Source: Ilumatobacter nonamiensis YM16-303 (GTDB lineage: Bacteria; Actinomycetota; Acidimicrobiia; Acidimicrobiales; Ilumatobacteraceae). Taken from it: 35,874 bases of DNA. Position numbers and translations under genes: made by a program. The stretch lies in contig NZ_BAOL01000167.1 of the NCBI RefSeq assembly GCF_000350145.1, positions 1 to 35,874 on the forward strand, in the 5' to 3' direction. Every line of letters starts with the position of its first letter. Positions within the stretch are counted from its first letter, which is position 1. The notes under the pieces are model-generated. The model did not search any database. It was not told the origin of the DNA and saw only the letters and a list, made by a program, of their open reading frames with translations. Shown in pieces: positions 122 to 35,510 of this stretch.

Positions 122-145
122 GCATCGCGAACCGGGTGGCGGGTA
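122..145 (+). promoter_or_regulatory. SigB/SigF-like promoter for DUF445 gene
   Basis: GCAT (122-125), 15 bases, GGGTA (141-145). The ATG at 158 follows 12 bases after GGGTA, so the transcript would carry almost no leader. The -35 half is a weak match (only G and T of GTTT); the call rests on agreement with stronger copies elsewhere in the window. Confidence 0.5.
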
Positions 146-157
146 CGTTCACCGGCG

Positions 158-1429
158 ATGACCATCATCGACCAAGCCCCACCACCGGTTGCCCTCGACG
201 ACGACGAACGCGCGCGCCGCCTTCGCCAGATGAAGTTGATCGCCACCTCGCTGTTCCTGTTCGCGGCGGTCGTGTTCGTCGTCGCAAAGATCAAGGAGGA
301 CGACGCGGACTGGATCGGATACGTCCGCGCAGTGGCGGAAGCGGCGATGGTCGGCGCACTCGCCGACTGGTTCGCGGTGACGGCGCTGTTCCGCCATCCG
401 TTGGGATTGCCGATCCCGCACACCGCCATCATCCCGAAGCGCAAGGACGACATCGGACGCAGTCTCGGAGGCTTCGTCGAGTCGAACTTCCTGACCGCCG
501 ACGTGATCGAGACGCGGCTCCGCGACGCCCACGTCGGCCAGCGGCTCGGCGAATGGCTCGCCGATCCGGGACACGCGGAGCGCACCGGTGACGCGATGGC
601 CGACGTCGTGAGGGGCGGCCTGGAGGTGCTCGACGACGAGGAGATCCAGTCGGGCCTCGAGCACGTCGTGCGGACGCGGATCCAGTCGACACAGGTGTCG
701 CCGATGATCGGCCGCGCGATCGAGTTGACCATGGAGGGCGGTCACCATCAACGACTGCTCGACGCAGCGATCGTCGGACTCGACCATTTCCTGCTGGACA
801 ACCGGGCGACCTTCCGGGAGCGGCTCTACCAGGAGTCTCCGTGGTGGGTTCCCGAGGGAATCGACGACCGCGTGTTCGACAAGATCTACGACGTGCTCGG
901 GCGGTTTCTCGCCGACGTGCTCGACTCGCCGCACCACCAGGTCCGCGCGAGCGTGGACGAGCGGGCCACCGACTTCGCACGCCGGCTGCGTGAGGATCCC
1001 GAACTTCACCGCAAGGGTGAGGAGTTGAAGCAGGAACTGCTCGACCATCCGGAGGTGCGCCGATGGATCGACTCGTTGTGGACCGAGACGAAGGCGTCGA
1101 TGCTCGTGGCGATCGACGATCCGGACAGCGAGCTCCGTCGACGCATCGCGTCGAGCACGCAGCGGCTCGGTGAACGACTGGCTGACGAGCCGGAACTCCA
1201 ACGCAAGGTCGACGACTGGATCGCGTCGGCGCTCGGCCACCTGGTCGCCAACTATCGGAACGAGGTCAGCGACCTCATCGAGTCAACGGTCGCGAAATGG
1301 GACGCCGACGCCACCGCCGACAAGCTCGAACTGCAGGTCGGACGCGACCTGCAGTTCATCCGCATCAACGGCACCATCGTCGGTGGGCTGGCCGGCTTCG
1401 TCATCCACGCGATCGGACAGCTGCTCTGA
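158..1429 (+). CDS. DUF445 family membrane protein (YjiN-like)
   Basis: A 423-residue protein of the DUF445 family, whose Escherichia coli member is YjiN; its biochemical function is not established. A hydrophobic segment at about residues 26-44 (LFLFAAVVFVV) is followed by the family hallmark region around residues 65-100, with ADWFAVTALFRHPLG and IIPKRKDDIGRSLGGFVE. The long middle is charged and predicted helical, and a second hydrophobic stretch (GGLAGFVIHAIGQLL) closes the C-terminus, giving a hairpin-like membrane protein anchored at both ends. Length is normal for the family. It stands alone between two serine tRNA genes, with a GGGTA-type box 12 bases before the ATG, so a leaderless stress-induced transcript is plausible. 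No Shine-Dalgarno is evident, in keeping with that. Confidence 0.9.
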   Translation: MTIIDQAPPPVALDDDERARRLRQMKLIATSLFLFAAVVFVVAKIKEDDADWIGYVRAVAEAAMVGALADWFAVTALFRHPLGLPIPHTAIIPKRKDDIGRSLGGFVESNFLTADVIETRLRDAHVGQRLGEWLADPGHAERTGDAMADVVRGGLEVLDDEEIQSGLEHVVRTRIQSTQVSPMIGRAIELTMEGGHHQRLLDAAIVGLDHFLLDNRATFRERLYQESPWWVPEGIDDRVFDKIYDVLGRFLADVLDSPHHQVRASVDERATDFARRLREDPELHRKGEELKQELLDHPEVRRWIDSLWTETKASMLVAIDDPDSELRRRIASSTQRLGERLADEPELQRKVDDWIASALGHLVANYRNEVSDLIESTVAKWDADATADKLELQVGRDLQFIRINGTIVGGLAGFVIHAIGQLL

Positions 1430-1557
1430 CGTGCCGCTCGCCCGTGCTTGGTGTTCTCGTCGCGCATCGACTCGATCCCCGCTCGAAAGCGCGACGGGAA
1501 CGAAGGGCGCGAGAACGACCCGTCCGCTCGTCCCGGCGGAGCGTTAGCGTGGACGAC

Positions 1558-1645
1558 GGAACGGTGGCAGAGCGGACGAATGCACCCGCCTTGAAAGCGG
1601 ACGAGGTTCACGCCTCCGGGGGTTCGAATCCCCCCCGTTCCGCCA
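1558..1645 (+). tRNA. tRNA-Ser(UGA)
   Basis: An 88-base class II tRNA with CCA encoded. Acceptor strands GGAACGG (1558-1564) and CCGTTCC (1635-1641) pair fully, with discriminator G1642 and CCA 1643-1645. The anticodon loop is CTTGAAA (anticodon TGA), and the T loop is TTCGAAT within a C/G-rich stem. A long variable arm (GAGGTTCACGCCTC) is present. The outermost anticodon-stem pair is a C-A mismatch (bases 27/43), which is unusual but should not abolish the fold. Confidence 0.95.
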
Positions 1646-1663
1646 AAGTAAAAGCGCTGTCGG

Positions 1664-1687
1664 GTTTGGCGATCGCCACCCGGGGTA
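1664..1687 (+). promoter_or_regulatory. SigB/SigF-like promoter for NHEJ operon
   Basis: GTTT (1664-1667), exactly 15 bases, GGGTA (1683-1687): a full match to the group-3 sigma factor consensus. The ATG of the small membrane protein is 10 bases downstream (1698). The three genes that follow are closely spaced or overlapping, so this box probably drives all four. Confidence 0.78.
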
Positions 1688-1697
1688 GCACCACACG

Positions 1698-1856: not shown

Positions 1857-1879
1857 TCCGCAGTGGGGGACACCGGGAC

Positions 1880-2542
1880 ATGACGACGACATCGAATCGG
1901 ACGACGGTCGACGCACTTCTCGATCGGCACGGTCGAACATTCGCTTCGGCGGCGGGAATTCGACTCGCGCGCAACACTCCGGCGCCGCTGTTCCAGACGC
2001 TGTACCTGTCGCTGCTGATCAGCGCGCGCATCTCGACCGACATCGCCATCGCGGCCACCCGAGCACTCCGCGACGCGGGCTGGACGACCCCGGCGAAGCT
2101 GCTCGATTCCACATGGCGGGAACGCACCGACGTGCTGAACGGGTCGGGATACGCCCGCTATGACGAGAGCACCGCGCGCTACCTCGAGAGAACGACCGAC
2201 CTCCTCGTCGATCGCTACGACGGTGACCTCCGCAACCTCCGCGACGAGGCCGACCGGAACCCTGACGCCGAGCATCGGCTGCTCACCGACTTCACCGGGA
2301 TCGGCGATCTCGGCGCGCACGTCTTCCTCCGTGAGGTCCAGATCGTGTGGGACGAGCTCGTTCCCTACGTCGACGACCGAACGCTCGACACCGCTACAGA
2401 GCTCTCCCTGCCCGGAACTCCCGACGGCTTGCGTGGAACGGTTCCCGACACCGAGACGTTTGCCCGACTCGTCGCCGCACTCGTGCGTTGTGGGATGGCG
2501 GGCGACCAGGACGAGATCCGCGAGGTTGCGGAGTCGTCATGA
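1880..2542 (+). CDS. Helix-hairpin-helix endonuclease III-like protein
   Basis: A 220-residue protein of helical composition. The clearest feature is a helix-hairpin-helix-like stretch at about residues 139-158 (LLTDFTGIGDLGAHVFLREV), which has the phi-x-G-phi-G-x-x-T/A-A arrangement of DNA glycosylases and endonuclease III relatives. I do not see a C-terminal iron-sulfur Cys cluster or a clear catalytic Lys next to the hairpin, so enzymatic activity is uncertain; it may only bind DNA. ATG 1880 is chosen because GGGGA lies about 10 bases upstream and a start further upstream would overlap the previous gene. The stop overlaps the next start (ATGA, 2539-2542), so it is translationally coupled to the LigD phosphoesterase, which suggests a role in repair of DNA ends or base lesions. 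Confidence 0.72.
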   Translation: MTTTSNRTTVDALLDRHGRTFASAAGIRLARNTPAPLFQTLYLSLLISARISTDIAIAATRALRDAGWTTPAKLLDSTWRERTDVLNGSGYARYDESTARYLERTTDLLVDRYDGDLRNLRDEADRNPDAEHRLLTDFTGIGDLGAHVFLREVQIVWDELVPYVDDRTLDTATELSLPGTPDGLRGTVPDTETFARLVAALVRCGMAGDQDEIREVAESS

Positions 2543-3150
2543 GCGAACGGCTCGACGAGTATCGGCGCAAGCGTGACTTCGAGCGGACCTCGGAGCCGTC
2601 GGACACCACCGATGTCCCACCCCCGGACGGGCCGCCCCGATTCGTCATCCAGCACCACGACGCCTCGAGTGAGCACTACGACTTCCGACTGGAACACGAC
2701 GGTGTCCTGCTCTCGTGGGCGGTTCCCAAGGGACCGTCGACCGACCCGCGGGACAAGCGACTGGCCGTGCGCACCGAGGACCACCCGCTCGACTACCTCG
2801 ACTTCGAGGGCACGATCCCTGAAGGCGAGTACGGCGGCGGGGCGGTGATCGTGTGGGACATCGGCACGTGGGGGCATGCGACGACCGACAGCGACGGTGC
2901 TCCGAGCAGCGTCGATGCGGCTCTCGACGACGGGCACCTAAGTTTCCGGCTCGACGGCCAGAAGATCCGCGGCGGATACACCCTGCAGTTGTTCCGACCC
3001 GACGACGACCAGTGGTTGCTCATCAAGCATGCGGACGACGATGCGGATGCACGCCGCCGTCCCACCTCCACCGAACCGAAATCGGTCCGCAGCGGTCTCG
3101 ACGTCACCGAGATCGCCGAGGTCATGGCCGACGACCCGGAGGAGCGATGA
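2539..3150 (+). CDS. LigD-type DNA 3'-phosphoesterase domain protein
   Basis: A 203-residue stand-alone version of the LigD N-terminal 3'-phosphoesterase (PE) domain, which trims 3'-phosphate and ribonucleotide ends before bacterial non-homologous end joining. Visible hallmarks are RFVIQHHDASSEHYDFRLE (the metal and active-site His/Asp/Arg region, about residues 34-52), LLSWAVPKGPS, EDHPLDYLDFEG and IPEGEYGGGAVIVWD. In many bacteria this domain is fused to polymerase and ligase in one LigD; here it is separate. It overlaps both neighbours by four bases (ATGA), so stoichiometric translation with the HhH protein and the polymerase is likely. The C-terminal 40 residues are charged and carry no recognisable domain. 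Confidence 0.93.
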   Translation: MSERLDEYRRKRDFERTSEPSDTTDVPPPDGPPRFVIQHHDASSEHYDFRLEHDGVLLSWAVPKGPSTDPRDKRLAVRTEDHPLDYLDFEGTIPEGEYGGGAVIVWDIGTWGHATTDSDGAPSSVDAALDDGHLSFRLDGQKIRGGYTLQLFRPDDDQWLLIKHADDDADARRRPTSTEPKSVRSGLDVTEIAEVMADDPEER

Positions 3151-4064
3151 GCAGCATCGCCGGCAAGTCGATCGAGTTGTCGCATCTCGACAAGGTGTAC
3201 TTCGACGACTCGGCCGCCTCCGGAGGCGGAAGCGGCCCCGTCACGAAGGGCGACGTCGTCGACTACTACGAGCGGGTCGCGGACCGGATGCTGCCGCACG
3301 TCGCCGGACGACCGCTGGTGCTCCAACGATTCCCCGACGGCATCGACGAGTTCGGCTTCTACCAGAAGAACACACCGGACCATGTCCCCGACTGGATCGA
3401 ACGCGTGGAGATGGCGACCGCCGACGGAGGATCGACGCGCTACGCGGTCGTCGACGACGCCGCAGGGCTCGTCTACCTCGCCAACCAGGGAGCGATCGTG
3501 TTCCACACGCTGCTCGCCGACGCGGTCGCACCGTCGCAACCCGTCGAGGTGATCTTCGATCTCGACCCGTCGAGCGACGACATGGGCCCGGTCCGTGCCG
3601 CCGCCCGCGAGCTCCAGACGCTGCTCGACGACCTCGGACTCGCACCTCGAGTCAAATCCTCGGGATCGCGCGGGCTGCACATCGTCGTCGACGTGATCGA
3701 CGAGGGCGACGTCGGCTTCGACCTCACCCGCACGTTCGCCCGCGAGGTGGCCGAGATCGTGAGCGAGCGCGGCCCGTTCACCGTCGAGCACCGCAAGGAC
3801 AAGCGCGAGGGCCGGCTGTTCCTCGACATCCTGCGCAACGGCCCCGCCAGCCACGCCGCTGCCCCGTACACGCTCCGACCGATCCACGGTGCACCGATCG
3901 CCGCGCCGCTGGACTGGGGAGAGGCGCTCGACTCCGGCTTCGACCCGCAGCGGATCACCATCCACAACGTCTTTCGTCGACTGGCGCAGAAGGACGATCC
4001 GTGGGATCACCTTCCGGAGCCGACGGTCACGATTCACGAGGCGCTGGACCGTCTCCGCGAATGA
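3147..4064 (+). CDS. LigD-type polymerase (primase-like) domain protein
   Basis: A 305-residue stand-alone LigD polymerase domain of the archaeo-eukaryotic primase superfamily, which fills gaps and adds (ribo)nucleotides during end joining. Motifs in order: HLDKVYFDD near the N-terminus, VVDYYERVADRMLPH, LVLQRFPDG, FYQKN, the metal-binding IFDLDPS (catalytic Asp pair), KSSGSRGLHIVVD, RKDKREGRLFLDILRN and APYTLRPIHGAPI. Length fits the isolated domain. It is coupled to the phosphoesterase by an ATGA overlap and converges on the ATPase gene with only 11 bases between stops. No ATP-dependent ligase gene is present in this window, so the sealing enzyme must be encoded elsewhere. Ku is about 11 kb away. 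Confidence 0.94.
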   Translation: MSSIAGKSIELSHLDKVYFDDSAASGGGSGPVTKGDVVDYYERVADRMLPHVAGRPLVLQRFPDGIDEFGFYQKNTPDHVPDWIERVEMATADGGSTRYAVVDDAAGLVYLANQGAIVFHTLLADAVAPSQPVEVIFDLDPSSDDMGPVRAAARELQTLLDDLGLAPRVKSSGSRGLHIVVDVIDEGDVGFDLTRTFAREVAEIVSERGPFTVEHRKDKREGRLFLDILRNGPASHAAAPYTLRPIHGAPIAAPLDWGEALDSGFDPQRITIHNVFRRLAQKDDPWDHLPEPTVTIHEALDRLRE

Positions 4065-7625: not shown

Positions 7626-7650
7626 TACCCATTCACCCCGGCAGCGACAC
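7626..7650 (-). promoter_or_regulatory. SigB/SigF-like promoter for DUF3140-wrbA-ATPase
   Basis: On the minus strand: GTGT (7650-7647), 16 bases, GGGTA (7630-7626), then 11 bases to ATG 7614. One mismatch from GTTT in the -35 half. Confidence 0.6.
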
Positions 7651-7830: not shown

Positions 7831-7855
7831 GAATCCATGTGCCCGCGGCGGGGTA
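7831..7855 (+). promoter_or_regulatory. SigB/SigF-like promoter for alcohol dehydrogenase operon
   Basis: GAAT (7831-7834), 16 bases, GGGTA (7851-7855). The ADH ATG is 45 bases downstream with GAGGAGA about 7 bases before it, so this is the leadered geometry. Confidence 0.62.
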
Positions 7856-10168: not shown

Positions 10169-10194
10169 GTTTGGCCCCCAGTGACCGGGGGAAT
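10169..10194 (+). promoter_or_regulatory. SigB/SigF-like promoter for F420 oxidoreductase
   Basis: GTTT (10169-10172), 16 bases, GGGAAT (10189-10194), a variant still within the SigB -10 consensus GGGWAW. The ATG at 10204 follows 10 bases after GGGAA, the leaderless spacing. Confidence 0.55.
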
Positions 10195-11497: not shown

Positions 11498-11522
11498 TAC
11501 CCACCTGCTGCGGCCCTCATTC
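11498..11522 (-). promoter_or_regulatory. SigB/SigF-like promoter for STAS-like gene
   Basis: On the minus strand: GAAT (11522-11519), 16 bases, GGGTA (11502-11498), then 11 bases to GTG 11486. Confidence 0.68.
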
Positions 11523-11547: not shown

Positions 11548-11772
11548 TCAGCGTTCGGGGGGTCGATGGTCACCGCCGAGCGCATCGGGATCCATCGTGG
11601 TTGCATCGGGTCCCGCCGGGCGGTCGGCGCCGTCGTAGAAACGCTCCGACCGAGTGTCGGTGACGTGTTCTTCGTGTTGCGAGGTCGTCTCGGGGTGTTG
11701 TCGATTCGCAAAGAACCAGCCGATGGCGGCGGTGGCCGCAAGCACTCCGAACACGATCGCGACGGTGGTCAT
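11548..11772 (-). CDS. Small membrane-anchored protein, 74 aa
   Basis: A 74-residue protein with one N-terminal hydrophobic segment (residues 2-20, TTVAIVFGVLAATAAIGWFF) followed by a hydrophilic tail rich in His, Glu, Asp and Pro. It is not recognised as a known family. The N-terminal segment could be a signal anchor. The ATG is supported by a GATT-N16-GGGTA box ending 11 bases upstream, the common leaderless geometry here. It lies 61 bases downstream of the STAS-like start on the same strand's far side, with its own box, so it is probably a separate unit reading toward that gene. Confidence 0.6.
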   Translation of the reverse strand: MTTVAIVFGVLAATAAIGWFFANRQHPETTSQHEEHVTDTRSERFYDGADRPAGPDATTMDPDALGGDHRPPER

Positions 11773-11783: not shown

Positions 11784-11808
11784 TACCCGAGCAGCGGTTC
11801 GACCAATC
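11784..11808 (-). promoter_or_regulatory. SigB/SigF-like promoter for 74-aa membrane protein
   Basis: On the minus strand: GATT (11808-11805), 16 bases, GGGTA (11788-11784), then 11 bases to ATG 11772. Confidence 0.58.
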
Positions 11809-12000: not shown

Positions 12001-14073
12001 TCACGTGGCGTCGACATGCTGCTGGCGGTCCCAGAAACGAACGGATCGACAGCCCTCGATGAAGCCGGTCGCAGCGCTCCCGGTATTCAGCTCGTGGTAC
12101 CCGTCGTCGAAGTCGGAAACGCCGGCCGCCTCGAACAGTGCGGTCGCCTCCGGCGTGTACGCCACGAATTTGCAGTGCGCGTGGGCGTCGGACACGAAAT
12201 CCTTGGCCGTCGCATCGCCGGCGAGTCGCTCGGCCTGGTCGGCGGTGACAACAACGGCGACTGCGTCGAAGAGGACCGACGGACCGCCGTCGATCTTCTC
12301 CGCGATCTCGAGGACGTTTCCTGCGCTGTCTTCGACGCCGTGCTTCTTCGGAGCGACGAACGCGAGCGTCACTCCTTCCGTGGTCGCCGCGTCACCGAGG
12401 GCTTCCAGTACATCGGCGTCGGAACCCGGAGCGACCAGCACACCGATGCGGCGCCCGGCGAAGGACGTCAGTGGCGCGGCGAGGATCGACAGCGCGGGCG
12501 ATGGTTCGAGGTCGGTCCGCGTCGGCCTGGCCGCATCGGATGCCTCGGGGAGGTCGAGACCCAGACCGTCGGCCACTTCACGCGCGAGCTCTTCGGAAAC
12601 GTTGCGGAGGCCACCGATCATTCGTGTCTGGATGGCCATCGTGTCGACCTTCGAGAGCTCGAACACGAACGCATCGGCGAGGTGGGTCTGTTCCACCTCG
12701 GTCTGGCTGTCGAAGAACTGTCGAGCCTGGCTGTAGTGGTCGGCGAACGACTCCGGGCGGACACGACGTTTGTCGCCGGATTCGGCTGCGGGGAACGATC
12801 GGTATCCAGCCACGGGGTCCTCGCGCGGGCCGCCGTCGTCGCCCCAGGAGTTGGGTTCGTAGTTCGCTCGACCGAATTCGGGCACCTGCGTGGCCATGTG
12901 ACCGTCCTGCTGGAAGTGCACGACGGGACACCGAGGAGCGTTGACGGGGATGTGCGTGAAGTTGGGAGATCCGAGCCGCTTCAACTGCGTGTCGAGATAC
13001 GAGAAGTTTCTTCCCTGCAGTAGCGGATCGTTGGTGAAATCGATTCCGGGGACGACGTTCGCCGTGCAGAAGGCCACCTGCTCGGTTTCGGCGAAGAAGT
13101 TGTCCACGTTCTGGTTGAGCGTCATCGTTCCGACGATCCTCACCGGCACGTGTTCCTCGGGGATCAGTTTCGTCGAGTCGAGAACGTCGAAATCGAAGGA
13201 ATCGGCGAAGTCGTCGTCGAAGAGTTGCACTCCCAGTTCCCACTGCGGATGGTCACCCGATTCGATCGCGTTCCAGAGGTCGCGTCGGTGGAAGTCGGGG
13301 TCGGCACCGTTGATCTTGACCGCCTCGTTCCACATCACCGACTGGAGTCCGGCAACCGGCTTCCAGTGGAACTTCACGTACGTCGACTCGTCGCGTTCGT
13401 TGACGAAACGGAACGTGTGCACCCCGAACCCCTCCATGAAACGGAACGACCGCGGGATGGCACGATCCGACATGATCCACATCAGCATGTGCGTGGATTC
13501 GGGCATCAACGACACGAAGTCCCAGAAGTTGTCGTGTGCCGTCTGCGCCTGGGGGAAACCGGTGTGCGGTTCGGGTTTCGCGGCATGGACCAGATCCGGG
13601 AACTTCATCGCATCCTGGATGAAGAACACCGGGATGTTGTTGGCGACCAAGTCCCAGTTGCCCTCATCGGTGTAGAACTTCGTCGCGAAGCCGCGCACGT
13701 CGCGGGCGAGGTCGAACGACCCTTTGTTCCCAGCGACCGTGGAGAACCGTACGAAGACCTCGGTGGTCTTGCCGGCCTCGCCGAACACGCCAGCTCTCGT
13801 CACGTCGAACATCGAGTCCGAGCATTCGAAAACGCCTTTCGCGCCGTACCCACGGGCGTGGACGACTCGTTCGGGAATCCGCTCGTGATCGAAGTGGAAG
13901 ATCTTCTCGCGCATCACGAAGTCTTCGAGCAGCTGCGGTCCCCGCTCGCCGTCCGTCAACGTGTTCTGGTCGTCGGCGACGATGACACCCTGCTGAGTCG
14001 TGAGCGCAGCGCCGGTACCGGCGTCGGCGACTGTCTGATGGGTCTCGCTCGGCTGTGTTGAATCGGTGGTCAT
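12001..14073 (-). CDS. katE: Large-subunit catalase (KatE/HPII type)
   Basis: A 690-residue clade 2 haem catalase that dismutates hydrogen peroxide in the cytoplasm. The catalytic His is in [12 protein letters not shown] (His72) and the catalytic Asn in [16 protein letters not shown] (Asn145). The proximal haem Tyr lies in [11 protein letters not shown], about residue 358. The final 150 residues ([20 protein letters not shown] and [15 protein letters not shown]) form the flavodoxin/DJ-1-like C-terminal domain that defines the large-subunit class. ATG 14073 is chosen because GAGGAG lies 8 bases upstream; an in-frame start at 14103 overlaps the promoter region. A GAAT-N15-GGGTA box gives a 33-base leader. 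KatE-type catalases are classic stationary-phase/general-stress genes, in line with this promoter. Confidence 0.97.
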
Positions 14074-14106: not shown

Positions 14107-14130
14107 TACCCGGATCTCGGGTTGTCATTC
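14107..14130 (-). promoter_or_regulatory. SigB/SigF-like promoter for katE
   Basis: On the minus strand: GAAT (14130-14127), 15 bases, GGGTA (14111-14107). The catalase ATG is 33 bases further with a Shine-Dalgarno GAGGAG. Confidence 0.65.
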
Positions 14131-14245: not shown

Positions 14246-14270
14246 GTATGAGCCCGACGATTGTTGGGTA
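14246..14270 (+). promoter_or_regulatory. SigB/SigF-like promoter upstream of DUF6629 gene
   Basis: GTAT (14246-14249), 16 bases, GGGTA (14266-14270). An ATG at 14282 follows 11 bases later, whereas the DUF6629 ATG is 93 bases away. The region 14131-14245 holds nothing I can recognise. Confidence 0.55.
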
Positions 14271-15065: not shown

Positions 15066-15091
15066 CGCGCCTCAGCCGGTCAGGAGGCGCG
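15066..15091. terminator. Hairpin between convergent DUF6629 and Ku genes
   Basis: CGCGCCTC (15066-15073) and GAGGCGCG (15084-15091) form an 8-bp GC stem around a 10-base loop, at the convergent 3' ends and overlapping the last codons of Ku. There is no T-tract, so it would act as a weak or factor-assisted bidirectional terminator. Confidence 0.4.
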
Positions 15092-16021
15092 TTCGATCGC
15101 AGCGACGAGTTCGTCCTTCGTCATCGTCGACCGTCCCGGGATGTCGTGCGCCTGGGCACGTTCGTACAGTTCGTTGCGGGTGAGGTCGGCCAAAGGATCA
15201 CCGGCCCCCGCCCTCGACGAACCCGTCCGCTCGCCACGAACACGTTCGACACTCGCCTCGAGCGCAGCCATCAGGTCGATCACGTCCGCAGAATCAGCGT
15301 CGCGGTCGTCGTCGACCACCATCTCGTCGCCCTCCGCCTTTCGTTCGATCAGCTCGACCACCTGCTGTCGATAGGTGTCGTCGTATGCCTCGGGATCCCA
15401 GTCGCTGGTCAGCGAATCGACCAACTGCGCGGCAGTGGCCAGTTCCCGGTCGTCGGGTTCGAGATCGTCGTCGAGCAGCTTGATCTCGTCGATCCCCTGC
15501 GGATCCCGGATCTCATCGGAGAAGAACATCGTCTGCAGCAACAGGATCCCCGATGCGGACCGAATCGCCGCGAGGTACTGCTTGGTGCGCATCACGAAGC
15601 GGGCGATCGCCACTCGATTCGCATCCTGCATCGCCGCTCGCAACAGTTCGTACGATTTCGCTGCGCCCTCGTCAGCGGGAGCGATGTAGTACGACTTCTG
15701 GAAGAAGATCGGATCGACATCGTCGAGCGCCACGAAGTCCTCGATCTCGATGCGCTCCTTCTGCCCGGGGTCGACGGCGTCCAACTCGTCGGGCTCGACG
15801 ATGACGTGGCGGCCGTCGCCGAGGTCGTATCCCTTCACGATGTCGTCGTAGGCGACTTCCTCCCCGCTGTCCGCGGCGACGCGCTTGCGTTCGATCCGCT
15901 CGCCGGTGCCCGCCTCGAGTTGATGGAAGTGAACCGTCTTCGACTCGGTCGCCGTGAACAACTTGACCGGGATGCTCACCAGCCCGAAGCTGATCGCACC
16001 CGACCAGATCGGCCGCGGCAT
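15080..16021 (-). CDS. ku: Ku, DNA end-binding protein of NHEJ
   Basis: A 313-residue bacterial Ku homodimer subunit, which threads onto double-strand DNA ends and recruits LigD. The N-terminus MPRPIWSGAISFGLVSIPVKL is the family signature (residues 1-20), followed by HFHQLE, KGYDLGDGRHVIVEPDELD, DPIFFQKSYYIAP, ARFVMRTKQYLAAIR and LLLQTMFFSDEIR. After the core, residues from about 270 hold a SAP/Rho-N-like tail (LTRNELYERAQAHDIPGRS, then MTKDELVAAIE) that probably binds DNA. Its tail is strikingly like that of the PfkB protein at 27262. No GGGTA box is found; a TACGAT hexamer and a 13-codon ORF precede it. The LigD partner domains are encoded at 2539-4064. Confidence 0.96.
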   Translation of the reverse strand: MPRPIWSGAISFGLVSIPVKLFTATESKTVHFHQLEAGTGERIERKRVAADSGEEVAYDDIVKGYDLGDGRHVIVEPDELDAVDPGQKERIEIEDFVALDDVDPIFFQKSYYIAPADEGAAKSYELLRAAMQDANRVAIARFVMRTKQYLAAIRSASGILLLQTMFFSDEIRDPQGIDEIKLLDDDLEPDDRELATAAQLVDSLTSDWDPEAYDDTYRQQVVELIERKAEGDEMVVDDDRDADSADVIDLMAALEASVERVRGERTGSSRAGAGDPLADLTRNELYERAQAHDIPGRSTMTKDELVAAIERAS

Positions 16022-16149: not shown

Positions 16150-17709
16150 ATGGATGCCGCGCCGAATGTCTTGTTCATCATCACCGATCAGCAACGCGCT
16201 GATCACCTCGGCTACGCCGGCAACCCGATCGTTCGGACGCCGAACCTCGACGCGCTCGCCGGGCGGAGCACCAACTTCACGAATGCCTACGTGAACAACC
16301 CGATCTGCATGCCGAACCGGTCCACGATCCTCACCGGTCGGATGCCGAGCATCCACGGCGCGATCTTCAACGACCGGTCGCTCGAGTGGGGAGCGAACAC
16401 GTTCGTCCGCACGCTCCGGTCTGCCGGGTATCGCACCGGCCTGATCGGCAAGTCACACCTGCAACTCGGAATGGGCATCGAGAACATTCCGCCGGTCACG
16501 CGGGAGACAGCTGTCCGTGACGGGTTCGAACCCGGCGACTACGCCCACGAGGATCACCGCCGATACGTCGCCGGCCCGGTCGACGACCCCGACGACTTCT
16601 ACGGCTTCGACACGGTCGCCTTCAGCCTCGACCACGGAGCACGCGTGTCGGGCCACCACTTGCAATGGGCTCTGGATCGTGGCGGAGACCTGGAGAACCT
16701 GTACGTCCCGTACTCACCCGAGGCGCCGGCGTTGCAGCGATCGGAACACTGGTGGCAGATCTACGAGCCGCCGTATCCGTCGGAGCTGCACTCGACCGAG
16801 TTCGTCACGCAACGCACGATCGAGTTCATCGAGTCCGCCCACGCCGACGGTGGGCCGTGGATGGCCTACGCCTCCTTCCCGGATCCGCACCATCCGATCA
16901 CGCCGCCCGGCGAGTGGTTCGGCCGACACGACCCGGCCGACATGCCCGAGCCCCGCGCGTTCGACGACCCCCTCGACGGCGCACCGCCGCACATCCGTGC
17001 CACACGCGCCCGGCTGGAGTCCCTGATGTGGCCGCTTCCCTTCGGCGCATCGAGCCCGACCCTGGCTCAGGAATGCATGGCCGGCACCTACGGCATGATC
17101 GAGTTCATCGACGATGGGATCGGGCGGATCCTCGACGCGGTCGATCGCCTCGGCGCCACGGGCGACACGATCGTCGTGTTCACCACCGACCATGGTGACA
17201 TGATGGGTGAGCACGGCCTGATGGTGAAGGGCAACCTCCACTATCAGGGGACCGTTCGTGCGCCGCTGCTGATCGCCCGGCCCGGCTCCGAGGGTGCGAC
17301 CAGCGAGTCGCTCGCGGCGTCGATCGACATCTCCGAGACGATCCTGGAGCTCTGCGGACTCGACCAGTTCATCGGGATGCAGGGCCATTCGCTCGTGCCG
17401 ATCCTCGACGATCCCGCTGTATCGGTGCGTGACGCCGTGCTGATCGAGGACGACATGCCGAGCCCGTTCGATCAGGTTCTCGGGGTTCCCGAGAAGATGC
17501 GCACGCTCGTCACCGCCGATGGTCGCTACACCCGCGACTCGAACGGATTCGAGGAGCTCTACGTGTTCGGTGACGACCCCGACGAAGTCGAGAATCGAGC
17601 GCCACACGACGAACCGCGCCGCTCGGAAATGCTCGGTCGACTGGTCGACCAGATGATGTCGGTCGGCGAGACCGGCCGCGGGATTCCCGCACCGCAGGCG
17701 CCAGGCTGA
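16150..17709 (+). CDS. Sulfatase (Cys-type, alkaline phosphatase superfamily)
   Basis: A 519-residue arylsulfatase/choline-sulfatase-like hydrolase. The metal-binding start is NVLFIITDQQRADHLGY. The active-site motif is CMPNRSTILTGR with Cys53 in C-x-P-x-R, the residue converted to formylglycine by a maturase that is not in this window. Later metal ligands appear in VVFTTDHGDMMGEHGLMVKG. There is no signal peptide at the N-terminus, so it is probably cytoplasmic, acting on imported sulfate esters. It lacks the GGGTA box of its neighbours; instead TACAGT (16133-16138) ends 11 bases before the ATG, compatible with a leaderless housekeeping promoter. The PAS-AraC regulator follows 50 bases downstream and may control it. 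Confidence 0.92.
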   Translation: MDAAPNVLFIITDQQRADHLGYAGNPIVRTPNLDALAGRSTNFTNAYVNNPICMPNRSTILTGRMPSIHGAIFNDRSLEWGANTFVRTLRSAGYRTGLIGKSHLQLGMGIENIPPVTRETAVRDGFEPGDYAHEDHRRYVAGPVDDPDDFYGFDTVAFSLDHGARVSGHHLQWALDRGGDLENLYVPYSPEAPALQRSEHWWQIYEPPYPSELHSTEFVTQRTIEFIESAHADGGPWMAYASFPDPHHPITPPGEWFGRHDPADMPEPRAFDDPLDGAPPHIRATRARLESLMWPLPFGASSPTLAQECMAGTYGMIEFIDDGIGRILDAVDRLGATGDTIVVFTTDHGDMMGEHGLMVKGNLHYQGTVRAPLLIARPGSEGATSESLAASIDISETILELCGLDQFIGMQGHSLVPILDDPAVSVRDAVLIEDDMPSPFDQVLGVPEKMRTLVTADGRYTRDSNGFEELYVFGDDPDEVENRAPHDEPRRSEMLGRLVDQMMSVGETGRGIPAPQAPG

Positions 17710-17759
17710 CCCTCCGCCGAACCGGCCGAGAGTTGGGGGCAGGCGCCGGACGGGCGAGC

Positions 17760-19226: not shown

Positions 19227-19251
19227 GAATGAATCGTCGCCGTCCTGGGTA
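19227..19251 (+). promoter_or_regulatory. SigB/SigF-like promoter for Mo-hydroxylase operon
   Basis: GAAT (19227-19230), 16 bases, GGGTA (19247-19251), then 11 bases to ATG 19263. Confidence 0.67.
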
Positions 19252-23470: not shown

Positions 23471-23494
23471 TACCCGATTCCTCGGCGCACAAAC
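23471..23494 (-). promoter_or_regulatory. SigB/SigF-like promoter for DUF326 gene
   Basis: On the minus strand: GTTT (23494-23491), exactly 15 bases, GGGTA (23475-23471). The leader to ATG 23408 is 62 bases. Confidence 0.75.
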
Positions 23495-23594: not shown

Positions 23595-23620
23595 GAATGA
23601 ATCCCCCTCAGGGCCGGGTA
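23595..23620 (+). promoter_or_regulatory. SigB/SigF-like promoter for GT4 gene
   Basis: GAAT (23595-23598), 17 bases, GGGTA (23616-23620), then a 44-base leader to ATG 23665. Spacing is one longer than most. Confidence 0.52.
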
Positions 23621-23664: not shown

Positions 23665-24753
23665 ATGAAGATCGCCATGATCGCACCCCTGTACGAGACC
23701 GTTCCGCCGTCGGGGTACGGCGGAACCGAGCGCGTCATCGCCGCGCTGAGCAACGAGCTCGTCGCCCGCGGCCACGACGTCACCCTGTTCGCTGCGGCCG
23801 GATCCGAATCGGCGGCGCGGCTCGAGCCGATGGTCCCGGCAGCACTCCGAAGTTCCATGCATCGCACCGCGCTGATCGAGATCGCCCCACACCTGCACCT
23901 CCAGATGCTCGCCGAAGTGTTCCGGCGGGCCCACGAATTCGACATCGTGCACTCCCATTGCGATCTGTGGACGTTGCCGTTCGTGCGCACCACGAACACC
24001 CCGACGGTCATCACTCTGCACGGACGACTCGACCTCGACACGGTGCAGCGCGTCTACCCGCTGTATCCCGAGACGCCTCTCGTGTCGATCAGCAACTCGC
24101 AGCGAGCACCGCTCGATCACTTTCCACTCCGATGGATGAGCACCTGCTACAACGGCCTCGACCTGGACGCGTACTTCGATGCGCCGACACGACGCGGTGA
24201 CTACCTGGCGTTCGTCGGCCGGCTGACACCGGAGAAGCGCCCCGACTGGGCGATCGAGGTCGCTGAACGAAGCGGGCTTCCACTCCGCGTCGCAGCGAAG
24301 ATCGACCCCCTCGACGCCGAATACTTCCACGATGTCATCGAGCCGCTCTTCGCGTCTCACCACGTCGACTTCGTCGGCGAGATCGGAGAAGCGGACAAGC
24401 CCGAGTTCTACGCCGGGGCGCGAGCGCTGCTCTTCCCGATCGACTGGCCCGAGCCATTCGGACTCGTCATGATCGAGGCACTCGCTGCGGGCACACCGGT
24501 GATCGCACTCGACCGTGGATCGGTCCCGGAGGTCGTGATCGATCGGAGATCGGGAGCGATCTGCGCATCGGTCGACGAGATGGTCGAGGCGGTCGGATGG
24601 ATCGATCAGCTGGGCGCAGACGCCTGTCGCGACCAGGCCGGTCGGTTCACCTCCGAAGCAATGGCGGATCAGTACATCGCGGTGTATCGGCGGGTGATCG
24701 ATTCGGCGCGACGTCAGCTCGTCGGCAGTGATTCGTCGAGGAGTGACCGGTGA
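23665..24753 (+). CDS. Glycosyltransferase family 4 protein
   Basis: A 362-residue GT-B glycosyltransferase (GT4). The N-terminal domain shows MIAPLYETVPPSGYGGTERV, with the acceptor-loop GGTER, and LVARGHDVTLFAAAGS. The C-terminal nucleotide-sugar domain shows FVGRLTPEKRPDWAIEVA and the GT4 E-x7-E motif in EPFGLVMIEALAAGTPVIA. The sugar and acceptor cannot be told. The start follows GAGAGGCAG by 5 bases. Its 3' end overlaps the 3' end of a small zinc-ribbon gene on the opposite strand by 40 bases. The next plus-strand gene is a glycogen-debranching protein, so a role in storage or protective glycan is possible. Confidence 0.92.
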   Translation: MKIAMIAPLYETVPPSGYGGTERVIAALSNELVARGHDVTLFAAAGSESAARLEPMVPAALRSSMHRTALIEIAPHLHLQMLAEVFRRAHEFDIVHSHCDLWTLPFVRTTNTPTVITLHGRLDLDTVQRVYPLYPETPLVSISNSQRAPLDHFPLRWMSTCYNGLDLDAYFDAPTRRGDYLAFVGRLTPEKRPDWAIEVAERSGLPLRVAAKIDPLDAEYFHDVIEPLFASHHVDFVGEIGEADKPEFYAGARALLFPIDWPEPFGLVMIEALAAGTPVIALDRGSVPEVVIDRRSGAICASVDEMVEAVGWIDQLGADACRDQAGRFTSEAMADQYIAVYRRVIDSARRQLVGSDSSRSDR

Positions 24754-24926
24754 TCGGGCTCCGACTCGGATGGCGCCGAGGCGCCGTCGCGGACCGGATG
24801 CTCCACGATGAACCCTCCGCACCGCTCGACGGCGGACCCACACGACCGACATCGCCACCGCGCTCCGGTCACCGGCTCGAGTACCCCGGCGCACGTCGGG
24901 CAGTGCGCATCGAAAATCGTGGACAT
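24714..24926 (-). CDS. Small zinc-ribbon protein, 70 aa
   Basis: A 70-residue protein whose first half is a zinc ribbon: FDAHCPTCAG at residues 5-14 and WRCRSCGSAVERCGGF at about 24-39, with Cys-x-x-Cys pairs in the usual arrangement. The second half is acidic and Ser-rich (EPDHRSLLDESLPTS) and probably disordered. A strong GGGGAAGAGG precedes the ATG, and a GGAT-N16-GGGTA box is 33 bases upstream. It overlaps the end of the GT4 gene by 40 bases in antisense, so one of the two tails constrains the other. Family unnamed. Confidence 0.6.
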   Translation of the reverse strand: MSTIFDAHCPTCAGVLEPVTGARWRCRSCGSAVERCGGFIVEHPVRDGASAPSESEPDHRSLLDESLPTS

Positions 24927-24959
24927 CCTCTTCCCCTTCTCCGTCGTTCGATGTCCCTG

Positions 24960-24984
24960 TACCCCACATCCGCCCGGTCGATCC
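24960..24984 (-). promoter_or_regulatory. SigB/SigF-like promoter for zinc-ribbon gene
   Basis: On the minus strand: GGAT (24984-24981), 16 bases, GGGTA (24964-24960). The leader is 33 bases. Confidence 0.52.
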
Positions 24985-25044
24985 GCCATCTCGGTCCGAC
25001 CCGAAACCGACCTCCGCTCGCCGGAATTCTCGATACTGGTGAAC

Positions 25045-27207
25045 ATGGACTCCCCGTTCAACACCGAACGACGACGTGGTGACGATCCGGGTCGAACCGG
25101 ACCCTCCCACGCGATCACCGACCACCTCATCACGATGGTCAACGGCCGGACCTTCACCGTTGCCACCGACCACGGCGAGCTCGTCGGTGCCGCCACCGGC
25201 ACCATCTTCGAAGACCTCCGGCTGCTCTCGCACCTGACGATCCGAATCGCGCCGGGCGGAGAGCGAGAACGACTCGCCATCCACACTCCGACCCCGTTCC
25301 ACACCGTTGTCGTCACCCGCCCGACGAGTGGAGGCGAACACGAACTCTTCGTCCATCGGCAATGGATCGGGCGGGGCGTCCGACACGACATCGAGGTGCA
25401 CAACACTCACTCGAGCGACGTCATCAGCCGGTCCGTCACCATCGCGGTCGATACCGACTTCGCCCATCTGTTCGACGTGAAGAGCGCCGCCGACGGCTCG
25501 CCTGTACCAGGCGCTCAGTCGATACTGACGTGGTCCGGAGATGCCGGTGAACTCCACCATTCCGATGACTCGGCCAAGCGAGTGGCGATCCATGCAACAT
25601 CGGCCCCCGACGTCATCGACGTCGAGCACAAGAAACTCACGTGGGACGTCACCGTGCCGCCGCGGGCATCGACCACGCTGTCGTTGACGTTCGAGCCCGT
25701 GTGGGATCACGCCGCGGCCGGACTGCTCTATCCCCTCGGCACGCGCCCACCCGACGCCAGTCCGGCTCACCGACTCAGCAACTGGGAGCGCGACGCGCCG
25801 CATCTGATCACCGACGACACGCGGCTCGCGGTCGCGTTCGACCGCTGCCTGGCCGACCTCGCCTCGCTCCGAATCTTCGACCCTGCCCATCCGAACGATG
25901 TCGTCGTCGCCGCGGGAGCGCCGTGGTTCATGACGCTGTTCGGCCGCGACTCGCTGATCACGTCCTACATGGTTCTTCCGTGGCTGCCCGAACTCGCACT
26001 CGGCGTGCTCCACGCACTCGCGGACCTCCAAGGGACGGAGGTCCGTCCGGAGTCGGAGGAGGAGCCGGGCAAGATCATCCACGAACTTCGTCGGCACAGC
26101 GGACACCAGGCGTTCGCGGACCGGGATCGCTACTACGGCACGGTCGACGCCACCCCCCTGTTCGTCATGGTCGCCGAGGAGGCTCACCGGTGGGGTCACC
26201 TCGCGCACGACGAACTGCGGAGACTGTGGCCGTCGATCCGGTCGGCACTCGGATGGATCACGGGACGCCTCGAGTCCGATCCCCATGGCCTTCTCTCGTA
26301 CCGTCGCAGCACGCCCTCCGGCCTCGCCAACCAGGGATGGAAGGACTCGTGGGATGGCGTCAACTTCGCCGACGGGAGCCTTCCCGACGGTCCGATCGCG
26401 CTCGTCGAAGCACAGGGGTACGCCTACGCAGCGTTGCGTGCCGGCGCGCACCTCGCGACTCAGATCGCCGAACCCGGACTCGACGCCACCGATCTCGTCA
26501 CGCAGGCGGCAACACTGCAGGAACGGTTCGAGGACGCGTTCTGGATGCCCGAAGCGGACAGCTACGCAGTCGGGGTCACATCGGATCGCAGGCGTATCGA
26601 CAGCGTCACGACCAATCCTGGACACGCCATCTGGTCCGGGATCTGTGACGTTGATCGCGCCGATCGCTACCTGGATCGCATCATCGACGACGACCTGTGG
26701 ACCGGCTGGGGACTGCGCACCCTGTCGCCCACGGGACGTGCGTACAACCCCCTCAGCTATCACAACGGATCCGTCTGGCCGCACGACACCGCGATCGTGA
26801 CGGCGGGCGCACAACGCCTTGGCCGCTCCGACGTCGTCGAGCAGCTCATCGACGGCGCACTCGACTGCGCCGAACGATTCGACGGCCGACCACCGGAACT
26901 GTTCGCCGGGGTCGATCGATCACTGCTCGACACGCCGGTGTCATACCCGGCCAGTTGCTCGCCGCAGGCCTGGTCGTCGGCATCCATCCTCCTGCACATT
27001 CGATCTGCGCTCGGTCTCCGCCCGCCAGAACCGCTCGGCACCACACCTCGCGCCGATGCCTCCGTTGCTCAGCGACGAACCGTCGACTCGATGAGCGGGC
27101 TCCGCGTCGGAGAGATTCGATACCGCCTCGACAGCGATCCGACCACCGGAAGGGTGACGATCGCTCGCGAGGCAGATGATCGGCCACCGCGGCCGTTTGG
27201 ACGCTGA
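25045..27207 (+). CDS. Glycogen debranching / amylo-1,6-glucosidase family protein
   Basis: A 720-residue protein with an N-terminal beta-sandwich of the bacterial debranching-enzyme type (residues about 20-250; HLITMVNGRTFTVATDHGE, FEDLRLLSHLTIR, ELFVHRQWIGRGVRHDIEV). It is followed by an (alpha/alpha)6 GH catalytic domain (residues about 280-690). Conserved stretches are AAGAPWFMTLFGRDSLITSY, GKIIHELRRHSGH, YYGTVDATPLFVM, GWKDSWDGVNFADG, and GWGLRTLSPTGRAYNPLSYH with NGSVWPHDTAI. This is the amylo-alpha-1,6-glucosidase (AGL-C-like) family, often linked to glycogen or trehalose metabolism; the substrate is inferred. The ATG 25045 gives the usual family N-terminus. No GGGTA box is seen upstream, so it may be a separate unit or read through from the GT4 promoter. 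Confidence 0.9.
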   Translation: MDSPFNTERRRGDDPGRTGPSHAITDHLITMVNGRTFTVATDHGELVGAATGTIFEDLRLLSHLTIRIAPGGERERLAIHTPTPFHTVVVTRPTSGGEHELFVHRQWIGRGVRHDIEVHNTHSSDVISRSVTIAVDTDFAHLFDVKSAADGSPVPGAQSILTWSGDAGELHHSDDSAKRVAIHATSAPDVIDVEHKKLTWDVTVPPRASTTLSLTFEPVWDHAAAGLLYPLGTRPPDASPAHRLSNWERDAPHLITDDTRLAVAFDRCLADLASLRIFDPAHPNDVVVAAGAPWFMTLFGRDSLITSYMVLPWLPELALGVLHALADLQGTEVRPESEEEPGKIIHELRRHSGHQAFADRDRYYGTVDATPLFVMVAEEAHRWGHLAHDELRRLWPSIRSALGWITGRLESDPHGLLSYRRSTPSGLANQGWKDSWDGVNFADGSLPDGPIALVEAQGYAYAALRAGAHLATQIAEPGLDATDLVTQAATLQERFEDAFWMPEADSYAVGVTSDRRRIDSVTTNPGHAIWSGICDVDRADRYLDRIIDDDLWTGWGLRTLSPTGRAYNPLSYHNGSVWPHDTAIVTAGAQRLGRSDVVEQLIDGALDCAERFDGRPPELFAGVDRSLLDTPVSYPASCSPQAWSSASILLHIRSALGLRPPEPLGTTPRADASVAQRRTVDSMSGLRVGEIRYRLDSDPTTGRVTIAREADDRPPRPFGR

Positions 27208-27218
27208 CGGTTCGGGTA
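27195..27218 (+). promoter_or_regulatory. SigB/SigF-like promoter for PfkB-SAP gene
   Basis: GTTT (27195-27198), exactly 15 bases, GGGTA (27214-27218). The -35 half overlaps the last codons of the debranching gene. The leader to ATG 27262 is 43 bases with AAGG in front. Confidence 0.76.
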
Positions 27219-29593: not shown

Positions 29594-29617
29594 TACCCAT
29601 CGCCCCGCCGCTGAAAC
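29594..29617 (-). promoter_or_regulatory. SigB/SigF-like promoter for AI-2E transporter
   Basis: On the minus strand: GTTT (29617-29614), exactly 15 bases, GGGTA (29598-29594), then 11 bases to ATG 29582. Confidence 0.76.
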
Positions 29618-29636: not shown

Positions 29637-29660
29637 GGATGAATCGCCGGAGGATGGGTA
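29637..29660 (+). promoter_or_regulatory. SigB/SigF-like promoter for DUF2231-Rieske gene
   Basis: GGAT (29637-29640), 15 bases, GGGTA (29656-29660). A 39-base leader with CAGGAG precedes ATG 29700. It is back to back with the AI-2E promoter. Confidence 0.52.
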
Positions 29661-31642: not shown

Positions 31643-31666
31643 TACCCCTTCACAGCGTGTCCAATC
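31643..31666 (-). promoter_or_regulatory. SigB/SigF-like promoter for topoisomerase IB
   Basis: On the minus strand: GATT (31666-31663), 15 bases, GGGTA (31647-31643), then 9 bases to ATG 31633. Confidence 0.62.
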
Positions 31667-33282: not shown

Positions 33283-33307
33283 TACCCCGACGGGCGCCGC
33301 TTCATTC
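33283..33307 (-). promoter_or_regulatory. Orphan SigB/SigF-like promoter
   Basis: On the minus strand: GAAT (33307-33304), 16 bases, GGGTA (33287-33283). It faces no established gene, only the mini-ORF whose ATG is nine bases further (33273). Confidence 0.5.
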
Positions 33308-33375
33308 GGACGTGCCACGACCGTCGCACGCTCGGGCGAAGCGTGCTCGGTGAAGATCTCGGGTACCGACGCCTC

Positions 33376-33401
33376 GAATGACCAACGGTGATCTCGGGGT
33401 A
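33376..33401 (+). promoter_or_regulatory. SigB/SigF-like promoter for second GT4 gene
   Basis: GAAT (33376-33379), 17 bases, GGGTA (33397-33401), then 10 bases to GTG 33412. A further GGGTA at 33361 has only a GCGT 16 bases before it and is less convincing. Confidence 0.55.
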
Positions 33402-34530: not shown

Positions 34531-34542
34531 AACGGCGGGTGG

Positions 34543-35367
34543 TCAGCGCACCGTCGGAGAGCCCACGACGATGCGAACACTCCCAGGGTGCCAGTCGATC
34601 AGGCCGAGGTCGCGGAACGCCGACAGCCACCCCCGCATCGGCCAGTGGCCCCACTTCTCGTGGAAGATCGTGGCGTTGGCCACGATCTCCTCGAGGTGAT
34701 CGACCGGAGGCGACCCCACGGGATGATGCTGGTGGAAGGCGAGCGCTTCTCCGTCGGCCCAGAGCCGAATGCCGTGTTCGGCCAGCGTGTGGGCGAAGTC
34801 GGTGTCCTCGCCTCCGTAGCCCCGGTACCGCTCGTCGAATCCGCCGACCTCGTCCCAGTCCTGGCGCCGGATCGCAAACGACAGCGACCAGAAGAGATCG
34901 GGCGTCGACAGCGTCTCCATCGGCTGCGCCGGTCGAGGACGACCGTCGTGGAAATGACCGACCCGTGTCAGCGAGTCGACCGACCAATCATCGATGTCCG
35001 TCTCGGGCGGCAGGTAGCCGACGGGGCCCGACCACACACCGCCGTACCGCGTGACCCGGTGGACATAGGTGGGGACCAGACGCGGCGAGGGCAAACAGTC
35101 GACATCGAGAAAGATGATCACGTCGGCATCGACGCTGCGCGCGCCGAGGTTCCGAGCCGCGGCGATGGGCAACGGGTCGTCGTCGGCCACGACGTGGCGA
35201 ACCACGACCTCCGGACCGTCGTCGACGCGATCGCCACCCATGTCGACGATGACGTGGGCGGCTCCCCGTGCATTCCGCTGCACCCATTCGCGTTGCCGCG
35301 TGAGATGCGCGCGTCGGTGACGGGCGACGGTCACGATCGCGACGGGCAGGGGTGTGGTTGGCCGCAT
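34543..35367 (-). CDS. GT2-type glycosyltransferase with galactosyltransferase-like C-terminus
   Basis: A 274-residue GT-A glycosyltransferase. The N-terminal nucleotide-binding strand is LPVAIVTVARHRRAHL, the metal-binding D-x-D is in VIIFLDVDCLPSP, and the C-terminal segment is SLSFAIRRQDWDEVGGFDE with YGGEDTDFAHTLAEHGIRL and ALAFHQHHP, the pattern of the Glyco_transf_7C domain. There is no membrane segment. The start at 35367 has GAGAAG upstream and gives the usual N-terminus; codons further upstream are open but cross the promoter at 35436-35459. The sugar is unknown. Together with the adjacent GT4 it may build an envelope or storage glycan. Confidence 0.9.
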   Translation of the reverse strand: MRPTTPLPVAIVTVARHRRAHLTRQREWVQRNARGAAHVIVDMGGDRVDDGPEVVVRHVVADDDPLPIAAARNLGARSVDADVIIFLDVDCLPSPRLVPTYVHRVTRYGGVWSGPVGYLPPETDIDDWSVDSLTRVGHFHDGRPRPAQPMETLSTPDLFWSLSFAIRRQDWDEVGGFDERYRGYGGEDTDFAHTLAEHGIRLWADGEALAFHQHHPVGSPPVDHLEEIVANATIFHEKWGHWPMRGWLSAFRDLGLIDWHPGSVRIVVGSPTVR

Positions 35368-35435
35368 GTGCTTCTCGGTGTCGATCCGCGCGCAGGTCGC
35401 CAGGTGTCCGACGCGCGTGATGGATCTCGTTTTCC

Positions 35436-35459
35436 TACCCAGGGATGGATGTTCCATTC
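35436..35459 (-). promoter_or_regulatory. SigB/SigF-like promoter for GT2 gene
   Basis: On the minus strand: GAAT (35459-35456), 15 bases, GGGTA (35440-35436). The leader to ATG 35367 is 68 bases. Confidence 0.62.
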
Positions 35460-35485
35460 GTCCGACCGGAAGATGTCGCCGACGC

Positions 35486-35510
35486 GAATCGCTCACACCC
35501 ATCGCGGGTA
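35486..35510 (+). promoter_or_regulatory. SigB/SigF-like promoter for 89-aa acidic protein
   Basis: GAAT (35486-35489), 16 bases, GGGTA (35506-35510). The leader to ATG 35543 is 32 bases and includes GAGGAG. Confidence 0.66.

Follow-up and report, generated by a model that had tools for sequence, protein, structure and literature searches.

Background

The promoter consensus of mycobacterial SigF has been given as GGWWT-N16-17-GGGTAY (PMC7693655) and that of SigF in Mycobacterium smegmatis as GTTT-N14-19-GGGTA (PMC4694148). Genes with reduced expression in a sigF mutant of M. smegmatis have been listed, among them a cluster at MSMEG_1766-1804 in which sigF itself lies together with RsbW and a type I topoisomerase; of the 39 locus numbers from 1766 to 1804, 27 are present in the part of Table 1 used here, where 14 of 88 site positions lie 8-11 nucleotides (nt) from a start codon (PMC4694148). 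Here we describe a series of similar two-part motifs, a GNNT-type -35 element followed by GGGTA, crowded into a 35,874-bp stretch of Ilumatobacter nonamiensis YM16-303. This stretch, hereafter the window, is the whole of contig C233 in a genome of 4.28 Mb and 399 contigs.

Grouping of this kind is not confined to one phylum. In Pseudomonas aeruginosa, PA2134-PA2190 form a contiguous 60.69-kb stationary-phase block with one expression profile, in which 32 of 57 genes are described as regulated by quorum sensing and/or RpoS (PMC1525188). Its likeness to the window lies in katE, a probable ATP-dependent DNA ligase, glycogen enzymes and zinc alcohol dehydrogenases, while its phylum and its regulators (RpoS, quorum sensing) differ (PMC1525188). 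In Streptomyces coelicolor, by comparison, it is the motif that is alike: SigB-family promoters have a GNNT -35 element in the osmotic-stress group and a -10 element with a near-invariant GGG and an A in fifth position, but the portion of the paper cited deals with single promoters common to nine SigB homologues and describes no clustering (PMC8346170).

Outside its cluster, the M. smegmatis SigF regulon resembles the window in its xanthine/aldehyde-dehydrogenase genes, catalase, family-2 glycosyltransferase, epimerase and glucan enzymes (PMC4694148). Set against the cited part of that study, the Ilumatobacter island differs in having its sigma factor genes on other contigs, in the presence of Ku, LigD parts, KatE and LMF1, in its commonest -35 element (GAAT) and in the greater frequency of short start-codon spacing (11 of 24 sites). 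Because of the M. smegmatis and P. aeruginosa cases, clustered sigma-stress regulons and short spacing have precedents. The window is thus a very dense example, from a little-studied lineage, of a kind already known; particular to it are the density, the GAAT-rich set of -35 elements, the company of Ku, LigD, KatE and DNA topoisomerase IB (TopIB), and a divergent second SigB. Among the literature matches listed, no paper treats the general stress regulon of this lineage by title.

A dense series of candidate stress promoters

The window is very probably a dense, physically clustered part of an actinobacterial general-stress regulon, its 23 gene-edge sites being putative promoters of a SigB/SigF-type holoenzyme. 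An exact scan with a loose (GNNT-N15-17-GGGTA) and a strict form (GWWT-N15-17-GGGTA) of the motif found 24 distinct loose sites, 22 at gene edges and two inside genes (12102 minus in katE, with GTTT at N14 and GCGT at N16; 26948 minus in the debranching-enzyme gene, with GCCT at N17). Together with GTTT-N16-GGGAAT at 10169, the edge sites number 23, the same set, its one GGGAAT included, as that proposed in the original prediction. Five carry GTTT (1664, 10169, 23471, 27195 and 29594), as had been counted, and ten rather than nine carry GAAT (7831, 11498, 14107, 19152, 19227, 23595, 33283, 33376, 35436 and 35486). The GGGTA strings that had been set aside within genes, near 8971, 16426, 23713, 26416 and 28610 minus, do lack GNNT at 15-17 bases, but 12102 and 26948 had gone unmentioned. 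The proposed SigB/SigF-type consensus agrees in letters and spacing, with a GWWT or GNNT -35 element, 15-17 bases and a GGGTA -10 element, and SigB/F-family sigma genes with RsbW-, SpoIIE- and STAS-type partners are present in the genome.

A short GGGTA and a loose GNNT invite the suspicion of chance, with favourable pairs picked out by eye. Loose sites do occur elsewhere: ten 20-kb control stretches of the same genome (200 kb) contain 18 GNNT sites and 3 GWWT sites, and 14 of the 48 strict sites outside the window lie deep within a called gene. The control stretches were drawn, not at random, from nine contigs with a match in earlier motif or profile searches, so that their density is, if anything, raised. 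In the window, by contrast, 24 GNNT and 17 GWWT sites are observed where 300 dinucleotide shuffles average 2.0 and 0.27, and none of the 17 strict sites lies deep within a gene; the expected excess over shuffled sequence, other stretches and gene interiors was therefore found. Genome-wide there are 65 strict sites (10 for the reversed pattern), 17 of which fall in the window, that is, in 0.84% of the DNA (binomial P ~6e-21), and GTTT-N14-18-GGGTA occurs 30 times, five of them in the window. The distance from GWWT to GGGTA in the window is sharply set: spacings of 15, 16 and 17 account for 7, 8 and 2 sites, and no other value between 8 and 26 for more than 2. These counts, joined by the phasing to the start codon described below, refute chance for the series, for which it is hardly credible; single loose sites, such as 33341, may be chance, as the original prediction had allowed in resting its case on the series.

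Position relative to start codons

In the curated gene list, 20 of the 24 loose sites have a start codon on the same strand no more than 70 nt beyond their end (null 0.034 per site), a figure that is flattering because several starts were chosen knowing the site. The claim that every site lies within 70 bases of a start is thus right for these 20, but the site at 14266 sits 93 nt from the DUF6629 start. Independently of the curated starts, an ATG stands 9-12 nt past GGGTA at 11 of the 24 window sites (P ~1e-9 from the window's ATG frequency); elsewhere this holds for 10 of 17 sites on C217, the C318 end and C163 together, and for 4 of 18 in the control stretches. At most other edge sites the leader would measure 32-68 nt, and several of these leaders contain AGGAG or GAGG. 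When transcription units are counted, 19 of 23 heads have a GNNT-GGGTA site, or 20 of 25 once the debranching-enzyme start is moved and a zinc-ribbon open reading frame (ORF) is added; the head encoding an LLM oxidoreductase is additional, with the GGGAAT form, and PfkB has its own site although it is not a head under a 60-nt rule.

Transcription in this promoter class begins 6-8 nt after GGGTA. A message is considered leaderless when its transcription start lies no more than 5 nt from the start codon (PMC6448022). If transcription here also starts 6-8 nt past GGGTA, an ATG about 10 nt past it implies a leaderless message, and roughly half of the window messages would begin at or within a few bases of their start codon. 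The same phasing bears on the idea that the sites are operators of another regulator that resemble SigB promoters. That they were identified from sequence alone counts for this idea; yet the two-part form, the 15-17 spacing and the fixed start-codon distance are the signature of a sigma factor, and an operator needs no phasing to an ATG, and we regard it as very unlikely.

Two SigB-type sigma factors

SigB1, on C163, scores 244.1 bits against TIGR02980, above the cut-off of 234.35, and a SigB/F-family sigma factor is thereby present in the genome. SigB2, on C217, scores ~164-167.5 bits, under the same cut-off, with TIGR02980 still giving its best E-value among the families listed. SigB1 is adjoined by a HATPase_c_2 protein, the kinase type being the only kind of partner identified there; a ferritin gene comes after it, and GTTT-N15-GGGTA stands 10 nt upstream of the ferritin ATG. 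The SigB2 module (L050:14733-17753) has all three partner-switching types (RsbW kinase, STAS antagonist, SpoIIE phosphatase), in the operon order SpoIIE phosphatase, a protein without family match, SigB2, HATPase_c_2 protein and STAS protein, and GAAT-N16-GGGTA stands 42 nt upstream of the phosphatase ATG. Of the 29 related genomes searched, several of which are incomplete, one yielded a SigB2 orthologue (75%), namely G007, which belongs to the same genus and consists of a single contig; no other match exceeds 47%. In G007, 2.6 kb separate SigB2 from the orthologue of TopIB (78%), and a relative (58% identical) of the window small protein 11548-11772 is found at ~5 kb, with further sites around.

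The motif, its excess, spacing, position and start-codon phasing, and the sigma factor and partner genes, are direct results; transcription from the sites, which of the two sigma factors is responsible and which signal sets it off we infer. In the proposed mechanism, stress would lead the SpoIIE-type phosphatase to dephosphorylate the STAS antagonist, which would then bind the RsbW-type kinase and so free the sigma factor. The resulting SigB/SigF-type holoenzyme would fire ~20 transcription units at once, whose products would include catalase, end-joining ligase parts, topoisomerase IB, polysaccharide-handling enzymes and oxidoreductases. Most gene groups are preceded by a common type of candidate stress-sigma switch, so that joint induction of the DNA repair, catalase and sugar-polymer genes is probable.

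Comparison with other genomes

The LLM oxidoreductase was aligned against named genomes, and all 80 loci among the matches listed, to which the LLM counts below also refer, were retained, among them L226, which has 237 nt between its start and the contig end. GNNT-N15-17-GGGTA lies within 230 nt upstream in 30 of the 80, against a summed expectation of 1.6, and these include Streptomyces, Mycobacterium, Actinomadura and a Rubrobacter record. In G016, of the same family, PfkB, two SigB genes, an RsbW-like protein, LLM, TopIB and Ku lie within 8 kb (L143:2600-10400, equal to 52-61 kb of C72), and there are seven GNNT sites in the surrounding 20 kb, of which three are followed by an ATG at 10-11 nt. 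In G023, DUF2231-Rieske, LLM and TopIB are adjacent, with six GNNT sites in 20 kb, one of them strict. For DUF2231-Rieske, only four near-full-length matches were taken, and two of these loci have a site, the window's own counted.

Other results speak against the proposed regulon or narrow it. The LLM sites are mostly loose, 6 of 30 being GWWT and 6 of 30 having an ATG at 9-12 nt, and two of ten haloarchaeal LLM loci have a site. To our knowledge, no SigB/F-type sigma factor is to be expected in haloarchaea. With so few strict, so few phased and two haloarchaeal sites, a few LLM sites are surely chance. None of four Streptomyces LLM loci with a divergent SigB-type gene directly upstream has a site, and the G016 cluster is without a strict GWWT site. 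TopIB has a GNNT site within 260 nt in 1 of 12 loci, that of the window itself, codon 1 of distant copies being only roughly placed; in G007 a site lies ~280 nt upstream of TopIB, before a short ORF. For Ku, 29 rows reduced to 21 loci, two of them truncated, and 2 of the 19 counted have a site, neither in the window. KatE has one within 300 nt in 5 of 8 loci, of which two belong to this genome, and some of these sites are weak or distant (nine matches, a 31% partial one left out). As for the sigma factors, no such site was found before the SigB1 operon, and genomes without SigB2 contain 0-37 GAAT-type sites, so that GAAT is no marker of SigB2. Within the window, Ku, the sulfatase and, with its start revised, the debranching enzyme have no site, and LMF1 is preceded by GGGTA with GTTC only. 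Finally, 48 of the 65 strict sites lie outside the window. The statement that the motif precedes nearly every unit is therefore accurate for 20 of 25 heads but fails for Ku, the sulfatase, probably the debranching enzyme, and LMF1; likewise, the regulon is clustered to the extent of 17 of 65 strict sites, the remainder being scattered. Given the units without a site and the strict sites elsewhere, the regulon extends beyond the window, which is the contig richest in sites.

Which of the two sigma factors would act on the island is a separate matter. SigB2 is slightly preferred, because its own operon has a site and because its G007 orthologue lies beside relatives of two island genes. It is quite possible, on the other hand, that the sites are genuine promoters but answer chiefly to SigB1, the canonical factor encoded on C163, and that SigB2 serves a small separate set. 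The region-4.2 helix of SigB1 is typical of the family, and SigB1 exceeds the TIGR02980 cut-off; the GTTT sites on C163, before the ferritin gene and before an ECF sigma gene, match the GTTT sites of the window; and SigB1 orthologues in G007 (70%) and G001 (64%) occur in genomes with a GTTT excess (13 versus 1 and 16 versus 1 for the reversed pattern). Set against this are the GAAT element of 10 of the 23 window sites, the GAAT site of the SigB2 operon itself and the neighbouring SigB2 and TopIB genes of G007. Because GAAT fits the published GGWWT in part, the GAAT sites leave the choice between SigB1 and SigB2 undecided. A reversed-pattern control for GAAT was discarded, since the reversed letters seem rare in GC-rich genomes and genomes lacking SigB2 also hold GAAT.

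A further step beyond the preference for SigB2, possible but doubtful, is that this factor is a lineage-specific paralogue which kept GGGTA and shifted its -35 element to GAATG(A/G), the island being its private, mostly leaderless regulon. The region-4.2 helix reads SQPQVHRRL/I in both SigB2 copies and SQMHVSRLL or close to it in nine other aligned factors, including SigB1. GAATG-N14-16-GGGTA occurs 13 times in the genome (reversed, 0); the window has 8 of these, where A or G always comes next, and 2 are near the C318 end; G007 has 4, of which 3 are in stretches picked for site clusters. Genomes without SigB2 have 0-14 such sites, so that a GAATG preference of SigB2 is suggestive only.

Genes behind the sites

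From the left end of the window, GCAT-N15-GGGTA (122-145, plus) stands 12 nt before ATG 158 of a DUF445 gene (158-1429; Pfam 4.1e-115). GTTT-N15-GGGTA (1664-1687, plus) is 10 nt from ATG 1698 of a small membrane-type protein (1698-1856), after which LigD-PE (2539-3150) and LigD-Pol (3147-4064) follow, by Pfam. A tRNA-Ser (anticodon tga) lies at 1558-1645, and, by eye, the end of a second tRNA-Ser lies on the minus strand at the window edge (within 1-90), which ARAGORN did not report. A run of DUF3140, FMN reductase and P-type cation ATPase genes is headed by GTGT-N16-GGGTA (7626-7650, minus), 11 nt from ATG 7614, and zinc alcohol dehydrogenase and epimerase genes by GAAT-N16-GGGTA (7831-7855, plus), 45 nt from ATG 7901, with AGGAG. 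The variant GTTT-N16-GGGAAT (10169-10194, plus) has ATG 10204 of the TIGR03557 F420-type LLM oxidoreductase at leaderless distance. Two small proteins on the minus strand follow, one with GAAT-N16-GGGTA (11498-11522) 11 nt from GTG 11486, the other (11548-11772) with GATT-N16-GGGTA (11784-11808) 11 nt from ATG 11772.

The long catalase KatE (12001-14073, minus) is HPII-like, yet under the cut-off of that model; its site is GAAT-N15-GGGTA (14107-14130, minus), 33 nt from ATG 14073, with AGGAG. A second catalase-like gene of the genome (L250, C191) has GTTT-N15-GGGTA directly upstream of its aligned start. On the other strand, GTAT-N16-GGGTA (14246-14270, plus) precedes ATG 14364 of the DUF6629 gene by 93 nt. 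Ku (15080-16021, minus) and a sulfatase with a PAS-AraC regulator (16150-18485, plus), assigned by Pfam, are without such a site upstream in the scan. An ORF without a Pfam family (18515-19141, minus) has GAAT-N16-GGGTA (19152-19176, minus) 10 nt from ATG 19141, and three-subunit xanthine/aldehyde-dehydrogenase-type (molybdopterin) genes, extending to 23010, have GAAT-N16-GGGTA (19227-19251, plus) 11 nt from ATG 19263.

Next come GTTT-N15-GGGTA (23471-23494, minus), 62 nt from ATG 23408 of a short protein with a weak DUF326 match, and GAAT-N17-GGGTA (23595-23620, plus), 44 nt from ATG 23665 of a glycosyltransferase. The zinc-ribbon-like ORF (24714-24926, minus; 70 codons, CPTC...CRSC) has a site of its own, GGAT-N16-GGGTA (24960-24984, minus), 33 nt from ATG 24926; a reading of the site at 24964 as an in-gene false positive was dropped once this ORF was found. 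The debranching-enzyme gene, called at 24808-27207, probably starts at 25039 or 25045 instead. GTTT-N15-GGGTA (27195-27218, plus) lies 43 nt from ATG 27262 of the PfkB-type kinase; GTTT-N15-GGGTA (29594-29617, minus) 11 nt from ATG 29582 of an AI-2E family transporter; GGAT-N15-GGGTA (29637-29660, plus) 39 nt from ATG 29700 of the DUF2231-Rieske gene, with AGGAG; and GATT-N15-GGGTA (31643-31666, minus) 9 nt from ATG 31633 of TopIB. A 49-codon ORF with weak coding signal has GAAT-N16-GGGTA (33283-33307, minus) 9 nt from ATG 33273, and a glycosyltransferase has two sites, GCGT-N16-GGGTA and GAAT-N17-GGGTA (33341-33401, plus), 46 and 10 nt from GTG 33412. At the right end, GAAT-N15-GGGTA (35436-35459, minus) is 68 nt from ATG 35367 of a family-2-type glycosyltransferase, and GAAT-N16-GGGTA (35486-35510, plus) is 32 nt from ATG 35543 of a small protein (35543-35812), with AGGAG.

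The stress-protection content of the window thus comprises KatE, Ku, LigD-PE, LigD-Pol and TopIB; its other Pfam families include three glycosyltransferases, a debranching-enzyme-like protein and LMF1. CsbD and ferritin genes elsewhere in the genome also have sites.

Extent and origin of the island

The C318 end (L051:7800-12300) has five strict sites in its last 5 kb, some of them before a PAP2 protein and before a small protein that is 65% identical to that at 35543-35812 of the window; perhaps this end continues the island. No end 18-mer of C233 recurs in C217 or C318 in a comparison of ten contig ends, which did not extend to the left end of C318. A join of C217 to C163 through a shared 27-base end was rejected, as both ends read, by our own reading, as acyl-CoA-dehydrogenase-type coding sequence.

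That the window was acquired horizontally as a genomic island, bringing its promoters along, is unlikely. It starts beside a tRNA-Ser (by eye) and holds another, and among nine same-genus genomes, several incomplete, KatE and SigB2 are found only in G007 and TopIB only in G007 and G001; but no integrase or transposase is among the Pfam matches of the window, and both its GC content of 66.6% and its tetranucleotide profile are within the range of the ten control stretches. Lacking integrase, transposase and deviant composition, it was not retained as a mobile genomic island.

Conclusions

This analysis provides a promoter-level, genome-wide prediction of the general stress regulon for this lineage and names two candidate sigma factors. 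It would place oxidative defence, DNA end-joining, topoisomerase IB and sugar-polymer genes under one type of switch, as in M. smegmatis, and in Pseudomonas a comparable grouping of genes is found under other regulators. Whether stress messages are translated leaderless can be tested directly, given the fixed 9-12-nt spacing, and the recurrent grouping makes it possible to test why stress regulons cluster physically.

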